A stretch of DNA of 30,185 nt from a virus, in the IMG/VR virus record IMGVR_UViG_3300032229_000366, positions 1 to 30,185 of that record, one strand, 5' to 3'. This document shows positions 3,350 through 13,650 of this stretch, one piece after another. Under the pieces are notes generated by a model, which saw only the letters and a list, made by a program, of their open reading frames with translations, ran no database searches and had not been told where the DNA came from. A program made the translations under genes and the position numbers. Position 1 is the first letter of the stretch. Each line of letters opens with the position of its first letter.

Positions 3350-4565
3350 TTTAATTGCAACAGTGTCAATGAATAAGACGCTGTCTAATCCTTATTATTT
3401 ATTCTCGTTTCAACATATAGCCAGTAAGCAAAGAATATCCTTTATTCCTGAAACTATTGTATCTAATACAAGATATGACAAGTTTAGATTCAAGGAGGGT
3501 GGTAATGTTAATTTAAGTATTACCCCACCTGAAGTATATTTTGAATACCTTGGTCAGTATTATTATTCTATCTATGAACAACTTAGTCCGACAAACACTG
3601 ATATTGCATTAACGTATAATAAATTAGAATCAGGTAGAGCAGTTGTTATTGTTGGAGATGCTAATCCTGATGCATGTTTCTTTGAACCATATATTTCAGA
3701 CGATGAAGATTTCGCAAATGTTATTTATATGTCTGAAGAAGAGGACTTCTGTATCTCAGGTGATACAATACCTGATTGTCCATTATCCTTGACTGGCAAT
3801 TGTCCTACGTATATTACAAGATATGCCCCATCAAATAGTATCAACTATAAAAACACAGGTACAACAGCTAATTTCTTATCATCATTCGATACTTGTGCAC
3901 CAGTACAAATAGCAATGGATAATTCAAGATTATTTATGGTTGATGGTTGTTCAACATATTATCAATACAATTATACAATCACTTCGGGTGGTTGCTTCAA
4001 CGTTTCCCTTGTGAATAGTTGGGATTTATGGGCTTCAAGTGGGGCTACTCCAAATGCATCTTATACAATGGGTATTTATGACCAAAACAATCTAATTGTT
4101 GGTGAGAGCGCTTCTTATGTATTACAAACAGGTTCAACTTTATATCTGTATAATTTAACTACATCAGGTTTAACCAAATGGTTAGAGGTAGGTAATGGAG
4201 CTCAAGTATATAACGTTTATTATAACACAGGTAATACACAAACAGTTCTTACATATGGTAGTGCTTCAGGTGGAACAGGTTATTATCAATTATACTCTGG
4301 TTCAACAAATCCACAACTTATAGGACAAATACCTATCACTATTGGAATAGGTGGTTCAACTATGTATTTTAGTGGTGGAACAGAACCTGTAGCTGTAAAT
4401 GTAGCAGGTCTTCAGTTTCCACTGAACTTTAGTGCGGGAACTATGAGTTTATTAGAAAACTCGAGTGGTATTCCAATTTATTATGTTAATTTTGATGATG
4501 GATTTGGTTACATATCAAGTATTGCACAACCAGCTTCTTGTTATACATTTGATATTTCTGTGTAA
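3318..4565 (+). CDS. Virion (tail or fibre) protein
   Basis: This protein has 415 residues. The N-terminus MLIIKKNQINNLIATVSM, followed by NPYYLFSFQH, matches a beginning I associate with structural proteins of Bacteroidota phages, which supports the start at 3318. The first ~145 residues form a beta-rich domain ending in a strongly acidic stretch (DDEDF, SEEEDF). The rest (about 150-415) is Gly/Ser/Thr/Tyr/Asn-rich beta sequence with scattered cysteines, typical of fibre or carbohydrate-binding tips. No catalytic motif is evident. It lies between the adhesin gene and the portal gene, so it could belong to tail tip, neck or head fibres. Structural class is likely; exact position is unknown. 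Confidence 0.55.
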   Translation: MLIIKKNQINNLIATVSMNKTLSNPYYLFSFQHIASKQRISFIPETIVSNTRYDKFRFKEGGNVNLSITPPEVYFEYLGQYYYSIYEQLSPTNTDIALTYNKLESGRAVVIVGDANPDACFFEPYISDDEDFANVIYMSEEEDFCISGDTIPDCPLSLTGNCPTYITRYAPSNSINYKNTGTTANFLSSFDTCAPVQIAMDNSRLFMVDGCSTYYQYNYTITSGGCFNVSLVNSWDLWASSGATPNASYTMGIYDQNNLIVGESASYVLQTGSTLYLYNLTTSGLTKWLEVGNGAQVYNVYYNTGNTQTVLTYGSASGGTGYYQLYSGSTNPQLIGQIPITIGIGGSTMYFSGGTEPVAVNVAGLQFPLNFSAGTMSLLENSSGIPIYYVNFDDGFGYISSIAQPASCYTFDISV

Positions 4566-4601: not shown

Positions 4602-5753
4602 ATGAGTGAAGATATAAAAAAGAAATTTGAGTTTATGATGCAGGACTTTAGTGCTGCTCAAGTACCTCAATACCAAGAAGTAATCAAGAATAAACCATAT
4701 GTGTTCTATGGGGATGACAATCTATTTCCAAATCACTTATTAGCCCTTTATCAATATTCATCTATCAATAGAGCTTGTCTTAATGCTATTATGTATGGTG
4801 TTAAAGGTAAGAATATGTTAGTTCAAGATGGTGACCCCAACAGAATTGCAATGGCCAATAGAAGTGAAACTGTTTATCAGGTATTTGAAAAGTGTGTGAT
4901 GGATAGAGTTATTTTTGGTGGATTTGCTTTGAATGTGGTAAAATCAAATGACGGAGATATTGCTGAGTTTTATCATATGGACTTTTCAAAGTTAAGAGCA
5001 GGTAAAGAAGATGAATTCACTAACGTGGGTTCTTATTATTATTCTGTTGATTGGAGAAGTTCAACTTTTTCTCAGAACAAGTATAAGCCAATCGAGTTGG
5101 AAGCATTCAATATGATGCCTGATTCAGCTCCAAGTCAAGTTATGTATTTCAAGACATATACTCCTGGTATGTCTTATTATCCAGCACCTGATTATTTAGG
5201 TGGTTTGACATCTATACAATTAGATATTGAAGTATCAAACTTCCACTTGAATAACATGCAAAATTCAATGATGCCTTCTGTAGCTGTTTCATTTACGAAT
5301 GGAGTACCTTCAGAGGAGGAAAGAGACATGATTTATCGTCAGTTGGATGCCAAGTATAGTTCAACAAATGCAGCGGGAAAATGGTTCTTATTCTTCAGTG
5401 AAAACCCTGAGACAGCACCAGTAATTACTCCGATACAGAATAACGCAAGTGATGCTTGGTATTCAGCAATGCAACCTCAGATAGAACAAAAAATCATGAC
5501 AGCTCACAGAATAGTAAACCCAATGATTTTGGGGGTTAAGACAGCAGGACAACTTGGTGGTAGAAATGAAATCTTGGAGAGTTATGATTTATTCGGTGAA
5601 ATAGTTTTGAAACCTATTCAAGAAGAAATCCTTAAGGGATTTGAGAAAGTCCTTTTCATCAGAGACAAACAGGAAATAAATCTACAGATTGAACAGAATC
5701 AATTATTACCAACCATTCAACAAGAAGCAGTTGGAAACCAAATAGGAATATAA
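4602..5753 (+). CDS. Portal protein
   Basis: This 383-residue protein is the likely dodecameric portal through which DNA is packaged and to which the neck attaches. Features consistent with a compact phage portal are an N-terminal segment with YVFYGDDNLFPNHLLALYQ, a stretch of helices around residues 50-110, the region SYYPAPDYLGGLTSIQLDIE near residue 200, and then a long helix with NFHLNNMQNSMMPS. The C-terminal part has helices ending in a Gln-rich tail. The neighbours fit: a connector-like gene begins one base after the stop. At 383 residues it is short for an HK97-type portal (often 400-500), as in other small Bacteroidota phages. The assignment rests on resemblance and context. Confidence 0.75.
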   Translation: MSEDIKKKFEFMMQDFSAAQVPQYQEVIKNKPYVFYGDDNLFPNHLLALYQYSSINRACLNAIMYGVKGKNMLVQDGDPNRIAMANRSETVYQVFEKCVMDRVIFGGFALNVVKSNDGDIAEFYHMDFSKLRAGKEDEFTNVGSYYYSVDWRSSTFSQNKYKPIELEAFNMMPDSAPSQVMYFKTYTPGMSYYPAPDYLGGLTSIQLDIEVSNFHLNNMQNSMMPSVAVSFTNGVPSEEERDMIYRQLDAKYSSTNAAGKWFLFFSENPETAPVITPIQNNASDAWYSAMQPQIEQKIMTAHRIVNPMILGVKTAGQLGGRNEILESYDLFGEIVLKPIQEEILKGFEKVLFIRDKQEINLQIEQNQLLPTIQQEAVGNQIGI

Positions 5754-7494: not shown

Positions 7495-7524
7495 TTGAGT
7501 TATTTCATCTTTTTGGTATACTTA
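7495..7524 (+). promoter_or_regulatory. Promoter candidate for the zinc-ribbon gene
   Basis: TTG at 7495-7497 and TATACTTA at 7517-7524 are separated by 19 nt, close to the Bacteroidota -33/-7 pattern (TTG, then TAnnTTTG). The gene starts at 7532, so the transcript would be nearly leaderless. Confidence 0.45.
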
Positions 7525-7531
7525 TATTAAT

Positions 7532-8026
7532 ATGAGAAAAGAAGACGAAAATAAGAAGATTTGTGGTGTTTGCAATAAAGAGAAATCTTTGGATAGTTTT
7601 ACCGTATATAAAAAAAAATATATAAGAAAGATTTGTAAGGTTTGTGTTTCAAAAGGATTAAAAATGACAGATGCACCAGTATTAAAAACAAAAGTATGTA
7701 GAGCTTGTGGAATTGAAAAAGACATCAAGCAATATCATACAGCAAAAGGAGTTGGTGACGGGTATACTGCAAGATGTAAGAAGTGTAAGATGGATGGTCT
7801 TCTAATACCGAAAGAGAAAAAAGAAAAGATAGAATACAGACCACTGACATTAGCTGCTCCAAGTATGGAAGATTATGTTGAAATGTATCTAACCCTCAAA
7901 GTTATGGGGTACGACCTTACAAAAGATATACACGAACAATTCTGTCATAAGTATAATCTCATACCGAATAATCCAAAACAAAAATTCAGACATCATATTT
8001 CACAAAAAAATTGTGGATTGATTTGA
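7532..8026 (+). CDS. Double zinc-ribbon protein
   Basis: This 164-residue protein carries two tandem Cys4 modules, each CxxC...CKxC. The first uses CGVC (about residues 11-14) and CKVC (about 36-39). The second uses CRAC (about 57-60) and CKKC (about 83-86). Such modules occur alone or at the N-terminus of phage HNH nucleases and regulators, but no HNH core follows here. The remaining ~75 residues are helical (MEDYVEMYLTLKVMGYDL) and end in a basic His-containing tail. A role in nucleic acid binding is likely. The gene is immediately followed by the putative non-coding RNA, whose promoter overlaps its stop codon. A functional link with that RNA is possible but unproven. Confidence 0.65.
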   Translation: MRKEDENKKICGVCNKEKSLDSFTVYKKKYIRKICKVCVSKGLKMTDAPVLKTKVCRACGIEKDIKQYHTAKGVGDGYTARCKKCKMDGLLIPKEKKEKIEYRPLTLAAPSMEDYVEMYLTLKVMGYDLTKDIHEQFCHKYNLIPNNPKQKFRHHISQKNCGLI

Positions 8027-8051
8027 TTTTTTTTATTTTTTCGTATATTTA
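8022..8051 (+). promoter_or_regulatory. Promoter candidate for the non-coding RNA
   Basis: TTTG at 8022-8025 and TATATTTA at 8044-8051 are 18 nt apart. This is one of the two best matches in the window to the Bacteroidota -33/-7 arrangement. It overlaps the end of the zinc-ribbon gene and points into the gene-free segment. Confidence 0.55.
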
Positions 8052-8317
8052 TAATTGTTGAATGGGGGATTATTAACACTAGGTTCAACAGATTAAGACT
8101 TACTAGGGGATATTCTACATAAAAGGTCAGCATCAGCACAAAGAGAGAAGATGTTAAGTAGAACAGACAAGTGAATGTTTGGAAGTTGCTCTCAAGTAAT
8201 ATGTTTTCACTGAAACTATTACCTCTCAGTCAAGTAAGGCTGTGTAGTGTGTCAACTCTGATAATACAGGGATATGACTCACTGCAACTCGTAAGTAAGG
8301 ATTAAAACATATATATA

Positions 8318-8335
8318 CTAGAAACTATATTCTAG
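8318..8335 (+). other. Alternative hairpin competing with the terminator
   Basis: CTAGAA at 8318-8323 pairs with TTCTAG at 8330-8335 around a 6-nt loop. It uses the same bases as the 5' arm of the long terminator stem, so the two structures exclude each other. Confidence 0.45.
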
Positions 8336-8410
8336 TCCAGTAAAAAGAGTTAATATACTTAATAATTTTTATCCCATTTTATTAAGCTGGACTAGAATAT
8401 AGTTTTTTTA
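8322..8410 (+). terminator. Long-stem terminator of the non-coding RNA
   Basis: AAACTATATTCTAGTCCAG (8322-8340) and CTGGACTAGAATATAGTTT (8387-8405) are perfect complements over 19 bp. The 46-nt loop is AT-rich, and the stem is followed by further Ts to 8409. It would end the RNA just before the next gene. Confidence 0.75.
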
Positions 8411-8431
8411 TGCAACTTTTTGATAAACCAA

Positions 8432-8444: not shown

Positions 8445-8669
8445 ATGACAACTAAGAAACATATCATTGAATCAATTGATTTAATTAAGATTGAAAAGAG
8501 TTTCAGAAAGGAAAAGGATGACAAATATTTTTATAATTTGAAACTATCTGGTATTGATGATATGTTATTATTGGAAACAGGATATAAGTTAGACAATCTT
8601 ATTGTTGGCAAGAAAGTTTCTTATGTACTTGACGATGAGAATGTTGTAATTAACTTAGTATTTAGTTAA
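8445..8669 (+). CDS. Small protein of unknown function
   Basis: This 74-residue, Lys/Asp/Leu-rich soluble protein has predicted short beta strands (YFYNLKLSGIDD, MLLLETGYKL, KKVSYVLDDENVVINLVFS). The pattern resembles a small beta-barrel, possibly nucleic acid-binding, but no family is recognised. It starts at ATG 8445 after an AAGATATTT box and ends just before a strong terminator, so it is probably its own transcription unit. It is the first gene downstream of the putative non-coding RNA. Confidence 0.6.
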   Translation: MTTKKHIIESIDLIKIEKSFRKEKDDKYFYNLKLSGIDDMLLLETGYKLDNLIVGKKVSYVLDDENVVINLVFS

Positions 8670-8672
8670 GCC

Positions 8673-8746
8673 AGAGAGGGGTTGAGTTTTATTGTTACCA
8701 TCGTAATTCTATTCTTTATTTTTTTTCTCTCCCCTCTCTTTTTTTT
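8673..8746 (+). terminator. Intrinsic terminator after the 8445 gene
   Basis: AGAGAGGGG at 8673-8681 pairs with CCCCTCTCT at 8731-8739 (9 bp), and Ts continue to 8746. The 49-nt loop is T-rich. The long loop is like that of the terminator at 8322-8410. Confidence 0.7.
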
Positions 8747-9123: not shown

Positions 9124-9154
9124 AAAAAAATTATTAAAAAAACTTCTATTTTGC

Positions 9155-9184
9155 TTGACCTTTTTGTGTTGGGGTGTATATTTA
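9155..9184 (+). promoter_or_regulatory. Promoter candidate for the 9206-11703 genes
   Basis: TTG at 9155-9157 and TATATTTA at 9177-9184 are 19 nt apart, matching the Bacteroidota -33/-7 spacing. The predicted start of transcription near 9191 leaves a short A-rich leader before ATG 9206. It probably drives the run of closely packed genes up to the methyltransferase. Confidence 0.6.
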
Positions 9185-9205
9185 TATATATAAAAGAATA
9201 GAAAA

Positions 9206-9385
9206 ATGAAAACATTATTAATCTCGGGCAACACCCTTACAGAATGGAACGTTGAAGAAATCATTTCAAACGTTAAATCAAAAGACCAAGTAATCTGTGA
9301 TATGATACAGGATGATTGGGATAATACAATCTCAAGATGCGGTATGACTTATCTTGAAATAGAACAACTAAATACATATAACTAA
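9206..9385 (+). CDS. Small acidic protein, 59 residues
   Basis: This short frame runs from ATG 9206 to TAA 9383-9385 and encodes MKTLLISGNTLTEWNVEEII, followed by an acidic helical part with two Cys residues and an end LEIEQLNTYN. It lies directly behind the best promoter candidate in the window, with an A-rich leader (GAAAAATG). The product looks like a compact soluble alpha/beta protein. No family is recognised. Promoter proximity and good codon use for this genome support it as real. Confidence 0.6.
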   Translation: MKTLLISGNTLTEWNVEEIISNVKSKDQVICDMIQDDWDNTISRCGMTYLEIEQLNTYN

Positions 9386-12239: not shown

Positions 12240-12412
12240 TGGGGAAAAAAGAAAAGGAACACAGAAAGAAAGTAGCCAAACGTAATGAACGATTAAAGGC
12301 AGAAGAGAGACAAATAGAAAGTTTACAGAGAAAAATCTTTGAAGAAGCAAAAGAAAGATATTATGCCAATCTGTCAGGTAAAACAGAGAATACATTCCAA
12401 ATCAAATTATAA
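12239..12412 (+). CDS. Small charged coiled-coil protein, 57 residues
   Basis: It starts at the ATG of a TAATG overlap with the previous gene and ends in a second TAATG overlap with the large terminase. Residues 1-42 are almost all Lys, Arg, Glu, Gln and Ala in a heptad-like pattern (KEKEHRKKVAKRNERLKAEE), so the protein is probably one long helix or coiled coil, with a short polar tail ending FQIKL. It is translationally coupled to the terminase. The role is unknown; an accessory packaging protein is possible. Confidence 0.6.
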   Translation: MGKKEKEHRKKVAKRNERLKAEERQIESLQRKIFEEAKERYYANLSGKTENTFQIKL

Positions 12413-13650
12413 TGGTTAATGAGATTGTGGTTGAGGGTTTTAGCCCCACCAAAAAACAATTAGAAATTATTGAAGCTTGCACCGACGAAACAACAAAGTA
12501 TATTGTTGGTTGCTTTGGAAGGCAGGCGGGAAAGAGCTTCACTGCACAAAATCTAATTCTTAAATGGGCACTTGAAGATAATACTTCAGTATCTATGTGG
12601 GTGTCACCAGTATATTCTCAAGCAAAGAAAGTATTCACAGAACTTACCAACTCAATTGCGGGGACTGGTTTAACCAAATCAATCAATAAGTCAGAACTAA
12701 CTATTACCTTTATCAACGGGTCTGTAATCTATTTCAGGTCAGGTGAAAGGGAAGATACTCTACGTGGTTATACATTAGATTATCTTATTGTGGATGAGGC
12801 AGCATACATCAAAGATGAAGTTTGGAATACAGTATTAAGACAGACAGTCTTAGTTAAAGGTAAGAAGGTATTATTCATATCAACACCAAAAGGTAAGAAT
12901 TGGTTTTATTCAGTTGCAATGAGAGGATATGGTGATGAGTACAAACAATACAAAACATTCCATGCAACATCATTCGACACCCCATTCATTACACAAGAAG
13001 AATTGGAAGAAGCAAAGTTGTCATTACCTGAATCAATTTATAGACAAGAGATATTAGCAGAGTTTATAGATGATGGAGGGGAAGTGTTCTCATCGTTAAA
13101 GACAAACTCCTTATTGACAGCATATCCCCCACAAGTAACAAATGAAAAGTATTATGCTGGTTTGGACTTTGGTAGACAGAATGACTACACAGTATTAACA
13201 ATCCTCAACTCAAAAGGTGAGATGGTTGACTTCTATCGTGAACGACAAAAGTCTTGGGACATCATTATATCAGAAGTTGTTGCAAAGTTGAGGAAATGGA
13301 AACCAGTTTGTTATGCTGAGGTTAATAGTATTGGAGATGTTCTATATGAGAACATAAGAAAACAATATCCTGGTGTTCAACCATTCGTTACAAACAATGA
13401 CTCAAAGCAAAACCTAATTGAAGATTTGATTATGGGTATGAATGAGAACAAAGTTGCATTACCCACCAAAGAGTTAAATCCTGACTTATACGGGGAGTTA
13501 AGTGTTTTTACATATGAATACTCACCCCGAACAAGAAAGGTCAAATATGGAGCTCCTAATGGATTTCATGATGACTGTGTGATTAGTCTAGCATTATCAT
13601 TTCATTCATTCAAGAAGAAAGCAAATTATGGAAGTTACGTTATAAGATGA
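12412..13650 (+). CDS. terL: Terminase large subunit (ATPase and nuclease)
   Basis: This 412-residue motor protein is complete. The ATPase domain has Walker A GRQAGKS at residues 36-42, Walker B LIVDEAA at 125-131, and a coupling-type motif FISTPKG at about 155-161. The RNase H-like nuclease domain has the acidic residues in GLDFG (D252), YAEVN (E303) and FHDD (D387/D388). It pumps DNA into the prohead through the portal and cuts the concatemer. The start ATG overlaps the stop of the preceding small gene. The length is near the lower end for the family, but all motifs are present. The capsid and portal genes lie far away, so packaging genes are not next to the head genes in this genome. Confidence 0.95.
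   Translation: MVNEIVVEGFSPTKKQLEIIEACTDETTKYIVGCFGRQAGKSFTAQNLILKWALEDNTSVSMWVSPVYSQAKKVFTELTNSIAGTGLTKSINKSELTITFINGSVIYFRSGEREDTLRGYTLDYLIVDEAAYIKDEVWNTVLRQTVLVKGKKVLFISTPKGKNWFYSVAMRGYGDEYKQYKTFHATSFDTPFITQEELEEAKLSLPESIYRQEILAEFIDDGGEVFSSLKTNSLLTAYPPQVTNEKYYAGLDFGRQNDYTVLTILNSKGEMVDFYRERQKSWDIIISEVVAKLRKWKPVCYAEVNSIGDVLYENIRKQYPGVQPFVTNNDSKQNLIEDLIMGMNENKVALPTKELNPDLYGELSVFTYEYSPRTRKVKYGAPNGFHDDCVISLALSFHSFKKKANYGSYVIR

Follow-up and report, generated by a model that had tools for sequence, protein, structure and literature searches.

The window analysed here is the whole of a 30,185-base virus record, and at positions 8055-8300 on its plus strand it holds, in what is an uncultured phage, a conserved structured RNA of about 245 nt with three pseudoknots. 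The RNA lies between the portal gene (4602-5753) and the terminase gene (12412-13650), and phages that resemble the window all share the arrangement portal, DUF6712, zinc-ribbon gene, RNA and 74-aa gene. The features flanking the RNA are as follows.

7532..8026, plus strand: zinc-ribbon gene (164 aa, two CxxC...CxxC units), the conserved neighbour of the RNA
8022..8051, plus strand: Bacteroidota-type promoter TTTG-N18-TATATTTA, with TTTG at 8022-8025 and TATATTTA at 8044-8051
8322..8410, plus strand: intrinsic terminator, in which 8322-8340 pairs with 8387-8405 (19 bp, 46-nt loop, T run)
8445..8669, plus strand: 74-aa gene, downstream of the terminator and with a promoter-like sequence of its own

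The TTTG of the promoter shares bases with the stop codon of the gene before it, and the TTTG-N18-TATATTTA match is unique within the window (0.23 expected). It agrees, save for the last base, with the Bacteroidota sigma-ABfr consensus, which has TTTG near -33 and TAnnTTTG near -7 (PMC7366714), and the homologues of the RNA are likewise preceded by a similar promoter pair. The start of transcription is inferred, without expression data, to fall at about 8055-8058, directly at helix P1. Promoter-like pairs of the form TTG-N18/19-TATAYTTA were also observed at window positions 7496-7540, 8022-8063 and 9150-9206, a few bases from start codons, and this closeness suggests leaderless or short-leader messages. 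The terminator of the window is not conserved, and most relatives lack it. A second long-looped hairpin that resembles a terminator, AGAGAGGGG...CCCCTCTCT followed by a T run, was seen 3' of the 74-aa gene (8676-8746), and the related locus L057 has a similar one.

Two short open reading frames are present over the RNA, a 44-aa GTG frame (8171-8305) and a 48-aa antisense frame. A reading frame conserved across the RNA homologues was looked for and not found, and a hidden small gene was rejected because the homologues differ in frames and starts. The folding energy of 8044-8415 gave a z of -4.0 (0 of 100 shuffles as good), in comparison to -1.9 for 8055-8310, from which the terminator is excluded (8 of 200 shuffles scored as well); folding energy alone is a weak argument, and it is covariation that decides. 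A first-pass annotation made from sequence alone had claimed a promoter pair, a gene-free segment and a 19-bp terminator stem with a T tail. Promoter and terminator were both found in place, and the segment is gene-free in that neither short frame is conserved. A short reading frame kept across relatives, which that annotation had named as a refutation, did not appear, and its proposed comparison of folding energy with shuffled sequence came out weakly in favour once the terminator was left out.

Homologues and fold of the RNA

A terminase search yielded 80 related phage loci, one of which (L057) carried an RNA homologue at 68% identity, and the conserved stretches of the window and L057 pair were used as DNA patterns for scanning IMG/VR. 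With the neighbouring zinc-ribbon protein as query, three more distinct homologues (L175, L212 and L221) were obtained, all missed by the DNA patterns in use at that stage, while the homologue in L252 was located from DNA alone. Altogether, homologues were detected by profile, covariance model (CM) and BLAST in about 20 IMG/VR contigs, 17 distinct ones of which were compared, with identity down to about 65-70%; their homology is shown.

Neither an RNA homologue nor a zinc-ribbon homologue was found in the cultured phages searched, and scans of bacterial genome contigs with the DNA patterns gave no RNA match or chance matches only. The RNA was not found in 395 Bacteroidota genomes under strict filters and without a positive control. 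The same genomes held no terminase homologue at E 1e-30, so that the host could be inferred from promoter type only; on that basis the phage probably infects Bacteroidota. The cmscan search of Rfam 15 at gathering thresholds returned no match for the window or for 27 related loci, and when matches up to E 10 were admitted the window gave chance-level ones only. Among these rli53 (E 0.1) was rejected, its match being the terminator inverted repeat only, and the GOLLD, ROOL and OLE covariance models did not match the window at gathering or at E up to 10.

Eleven helices covary, and three pseudoknots are among them, formed by the P1 loop with J1/2 (PK1), by P2 interleaved with P3, and by the P4 loop with J5/6 (PK2). 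The elements of the fold in the window are listed below.

8056-8063 / 8083-8090, plus strand: P1, 8 bp, the last pair being U-G
8079-8082 (CUAG, P1 loop) / 8103-8106 (CUAG), plus strand: PK1, covarying pseudoknot
8097-8101 (GACUU) / 8124-8128 (AGGUC), plus strand: P2, interleaved with P3 as a pseudoknot
8113-8118 / 8158-8163, plus strand: P3, both sides changing in 5 of 6 pairs (0 of 5000 permutations)
8131-8134 / 8150-8153, plus strand: P4, closing the 15-nt loop AGCACAAAGnnnGAA (8135-8149)
8143-8147 (GAGAG, P4 loop) / 8189-8193 (CUCUC), plus strand: PK2, pseudoknot
8164-8169 / 8176-8181, plus strand: P5, both sides changing in 5 of 6 pairs
8196-8206 / 8213-8222, plus strand: P6, with a bulged U
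8227-8231 / 8238-8242, plus strand: P7, whose loop holds copy 1 of the AAGUAAG motif (8232-8238)
8246-8254 / 8275-8283 plus 8256-8260 / 8267-8271, plus strand: P8, covarying
8293-8299, plus strand: copy 2 of AAGUAAG, in the 3' single strand, varying in parallel with the copy in the P7 loop

All six scored pairs of P1 vary on both sides (0 of 5000 permutations), and PK1 is replaced in relatives by CUUG:CAAG, GUAG:CUAC, UCAG:CUGG, CCAG:CUGG and CUGG:CCAG. The 15-nt P4 loop is nearly invariant among the homologues. Both copies of the AARYAA motif change together among the variants AAGUAA, AAAUAA and AAGCAA in L084, L100, L119 and L111, and nearly, not fully, so in L093. The two copies were observed not to be fully complementary to each other, and their parallel change could reflect either a shared partner or a contact between copies. 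Two further helices were tried and rejected. The closing helix ACUUAC:GUAAGU given by RNAfold (8098-8103/8292-8297) was dismissed because it is broken in five relatives (L084, L100, L093, L111 and L119) and its bases are better accounted for by P2, and a helix between the P6 loop (CCCUUG) and CAAGGG suits some relatives and does not fit the window, L093 or L111.

The helices were initially placed by eye on aligned sequences and then scored against permuted controls, and because this first choice was made by eye, three further tests of the fold were added. In the untouched MAFFT alignment (A1, 12 rows), pairing holds in 97.2% of 390 cells and both sides change in 21 of 33 pairs in comparison to 8.1 for shuffles; none of 500 shuffles reached either value, and sliding the partners by 1-3 columns lowered pairing to 33-53%. 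In the structural CM alignment (A3, 16 distinct rows), 526 of 527 cells (99.8%) are standard pairs with both-side change in 26 of 33 pairs, which 0 of 500 shuffles matched, and sliding brought pairing down to 35-49%. The 99.8% value is biased towards the search model for P3-P6. P2 and PK2 were left out of that model, and each is paired in 80 of 80 cells of A3, which gives 160 of 160 with 17 both-side changes, PK2 changing on both sides in 4 of its 5 pairs. In L175, L212 and L221, which were unused in deriving the fold and whose strands were located by hand, 28 of 31 helices pair throughout and three carry a single mismatch each, and 20 strand pairs not previously seen were recorded. The support for PK1, P1, P7 and P8 comes from hand-located strands only.

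A census of pairs on the plus strand counted 52 G-U against 0 A-C, and the folded and selected molecule is therefore the plus-strand RNA. The element could otherwise work as DNA, for example as an origin or packaging site, for which it can be said that it is intergenic and conserved. Against this stand the pair census, the promoter directly upstream, and the interleaving of helices, which is typical of RNA folds, and a DNA element is very unlikely. A catalytic RNA, self-cleaving or self-splicing, would be in keeping with the compact pseudoknotted topology and invariant loops, and the interleaved P2 and P3 with a nested hairpin loosely recall double-pseudoknot ribozymes. However, no ribozyme or intron in Rfam matches, the element is intergenic and interrupts no gene, and the HDV-like P3 hairpin is absent between the interleaved helices, so we consider this reading very improbable.

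The 8055-8300 element thus meets the criterion for a structured non-coding RNA, namely compensatory changes across homologues and no conserved reading frame, and its fold, strand and non-coding nature are shown. That it represents a functional structured RNA family is almost certain. The four helices named in the first-pass annotation (8057-8062/8084-8089, 8113-8118/8158-8163, 8196-8222 and 8246-8283) all held as covarying P1, P3, P6 and P8, while P2, P4, P5, P7, PK1 and PK2, and with them all three pseudoknots, had been overlooked. Its suggestion of a structured phage RNA of no known family is supported by the lack of an Rfam match, the homologues in phage contigs, the covariation and the absence of a conserved frame. 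Of the checks it had proposed, the Rfam search assigned no family and the covariation analysis was decisive in favour of a structured RNA; it had not recognised the RNA as GOLLD or ROOL, and neither covariance model matched. The results describe a new RNA family with unusually strong support for its fold, and none of the phages that carry it is represented by an isolate in the collections searched.

The zinc-ribbon neighbour and the exchangeable slot

The zinc-ribbon gene lies within about 110 nt of the RNA in all homologues but one, and the RNA either follows it on the same strand or is divergently oriented, with gaps of 20-112 nt at same-strand loci and 28-49 nt at divergent loci. In L119, L212, L219, L221 and L252 the gene is on the opposite strand and still directly 5' of the RNA; the apparent overlap of the two in L219 is likely to come from a start codon called too early. 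The single exception is L111, where they are 0.9 kb apart. In L057 the zinc-ribbon gene occupies 3492-3854. A search with the zinc-ribbon protein favours loci with this neighbour, whereas those obtained by DNA patterns or terminase carry no such bias and show the same neighbour, and the neighbourhood is shown. Most ornate phage RNAs have no concrete partner, and the repeated pairing with one zinc-ribbon gene provides a concrete candidate partner for testing.

It is also possible that the protein is merely a fixed neighbour. Its family occurs without the RNA as well, and its closest relative (L173, 69% identity) lacks the RNA and has a different element in the slot. As to an endonuclease VII/HNH nuclease, which would have a catalytic His/Asn motif besides the zinc ribbon, the PHROGs matches of the protein are confined to short segments near that ribbon, the alignment has only one near-invariant His, and the structure model is of low global confidence (pTM 0.40). 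The matches of this model in the PDB, to the zinc fingers of Stc1 and Hpy99I, were only weak and were not accepted.

The patchy distribution of the RNA is also shown: most contigs whose terminase is closely related do not carry it. Since it is absent from many such contigs and its slot is otherwise filled in L014, L018 and L173, by protein genes in the first two, the RNA is accessory. This bears on a packaging or virion role like that of phi29 pRNA, in favour of which the RNA is phage-encoded, structured and placed between the portal and terminase genes. However, contigs with 80-86% identical terminases lack it, including the slot-spanning L014 and L018 and long contigs of 29.6-32.2 kb; L111 has the RNA alongside a terminase of 25% identity; no pRNA match was found in Rfam; and co-inheritance with packaging ATPase and portal is not met. 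A packaging role is therefore disfavoured and very unlikely.

Other contents of the slot were observed in related contigs. The protein genes there (L014, L003, L018, L188, L210 and L189) are often small and, judged by eye, possibly winged-helix or replication-initiator-like. Also seen were at least four further non-coding elements in which paired arms can be recognised and for which Rfam has no match; their arm pairing was tested only roughly, with too few sequences for all but type V, and they are leads only. Type II (about 110 nt, 3' of the zinc-ribbon gene; L173 ~4040-4160, L014 ~4310-4420, L203, L205 and L199) has GUCC...GGAC and an 8-bp helix (CUCAUCAC:GUGAUGAG or variants of it) that interleave with each other, followed by a terminator-like hairpin immediately 5' of a gene; 32 of 32 arm cells are paired in only 4 distinct sequences, and the loci searched gave no Rfam match. 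Type V (about 120 nt, directly 3' of the zinc-ribbon gene; L047, L190, L193, L223, L218, L010 and L184) has an ACCAC...GUGGU arm with clear compensatory change (55 of 56 cells, 1 of 2000 permutations), interleaved with two terminator-like hairpins. Type III (L197, L184, L223, L218 and L010) is a longer conserved non-coding stretch, and type IV (L047, L190, L193 and L191) has a hairpin with the constant loop ACAACG and varying arms; both are about 200-300 nt without an Rfam match. As the slot appears to hold further RNA families, a single locus may give access to several phage RNAs for study.

The 74-aa gene is the downstream neighbour of the RNA in the clade of the window only, and the genes downstream differ between clades and have promoter-like sequences of their own. 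In many relatives, and not in the window, a frame encoding a peptide of 20-27 aa, with one membrane helix and a basic tail, was observed 5' of the 74-aa gene (L057 ~4190-4280; in L018 just 5' of the homologue of that gene). These observations are relevant to the main rival explanation, a cis-acting leader, riboswitch-like or an attenuator, whose folded domain would sense something and control a downstream terminator or gene. In its favour are the order of promoter, folded domain, 19-bp terminator and gene in the window, the membrane-peptide frame within about 50 nt 3' of the RNA in many relatives, and the short elements of L173 and L014, which come with a terminator-like hairpin immediately 5' of a gene. 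Against it, the leader position conserved for one gene family is not met, the downstream gene differing between clades; promoter-like sequences are associated with the downstream genes themselves; the membrane-peptide frame is also found without the RNA (L018); the terminator is not conserved; and the conserved neighbour sits 5', often on the opposite strand. A leader remains possible but is less likely than not.

Proposed role and comparison with known systems

The reading we put forward is that of a stand-alone, trans-acting, accessory cargo RNA, since the promoter abuts P1, the downstream gene varies by clade and the terminator of the window precedes the next gene; we regard it as having about an even chance of being right, and expression, action in trans, protein binding and a role in the host are all inferred. 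The RNA would be started by its own promoter directly at P1. Eight helices, P2 and P3 being interleaved, and two contacts between a loop and a strand form a compact body with three pseudoknots. It would act in trans, as RNA or as an RNA-protein particle, with the 15-nt P4 loop and both AARYAA motifs as the fixed, unpaired sequences offered to a partner. The zinc-ribbon protein, for which there are no binding data, may be this partner. It would be exchangeable accessory cargo for host takeover, counter-defence or regulation, not virion machinery. Speaking against a stand-alone RNA, several relatives have a short frame after the RNA and no terminator, and in these a leader role is possible. A bolder and unlikely reading is that the zinc-ribbon gene stands beside an exchangeable slot whose unrelated structured RNAs are interchangeable effectors loaded by its protein; if true, this would be a phage RNA-protein system unlike known ones, for counter-defence or host takeover.

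In comparison to known systems, a pseudoknotted riboswitch shares with the window the succession of folded domain, terminator and gene, but the downstream gene is not conserved, most relatives have no terminator and no known aptamer matches. The phi29 pRNA is likewise a phage-encoded structured RNA near packaging genes, whereas the window RNA is accessory, not tied to a particular terminase and without an Rfam match. The OLE RNA is likewise structured, has partner proteins and is not understood in its detailed role (the partner of the window RNA is only inferred), but the window RNA is much shorter, in a phage context and without a CM match. The motifs from comparative genomics (PMC2864571, PMC8040213), some of them in Bacteroidota or phages, rest on the same type of evidence, and none of those deposited in Rfam, to which this comparison is limited, matches. 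The likeness to GOLLD and ROOL, ornate RNAs of phages and prophages, lies in being phage-encoded, standalone, strongly covarying, pseudoknotted, accessory and of unknown function. Those RNAs measure 659 to over 800 nt (PMC12286853), whereas the window RNA has about 245 nt, shares no sequence or CM match with them, has no tRNA alongside it in the window and is linked to a zinc-ribbon gene.
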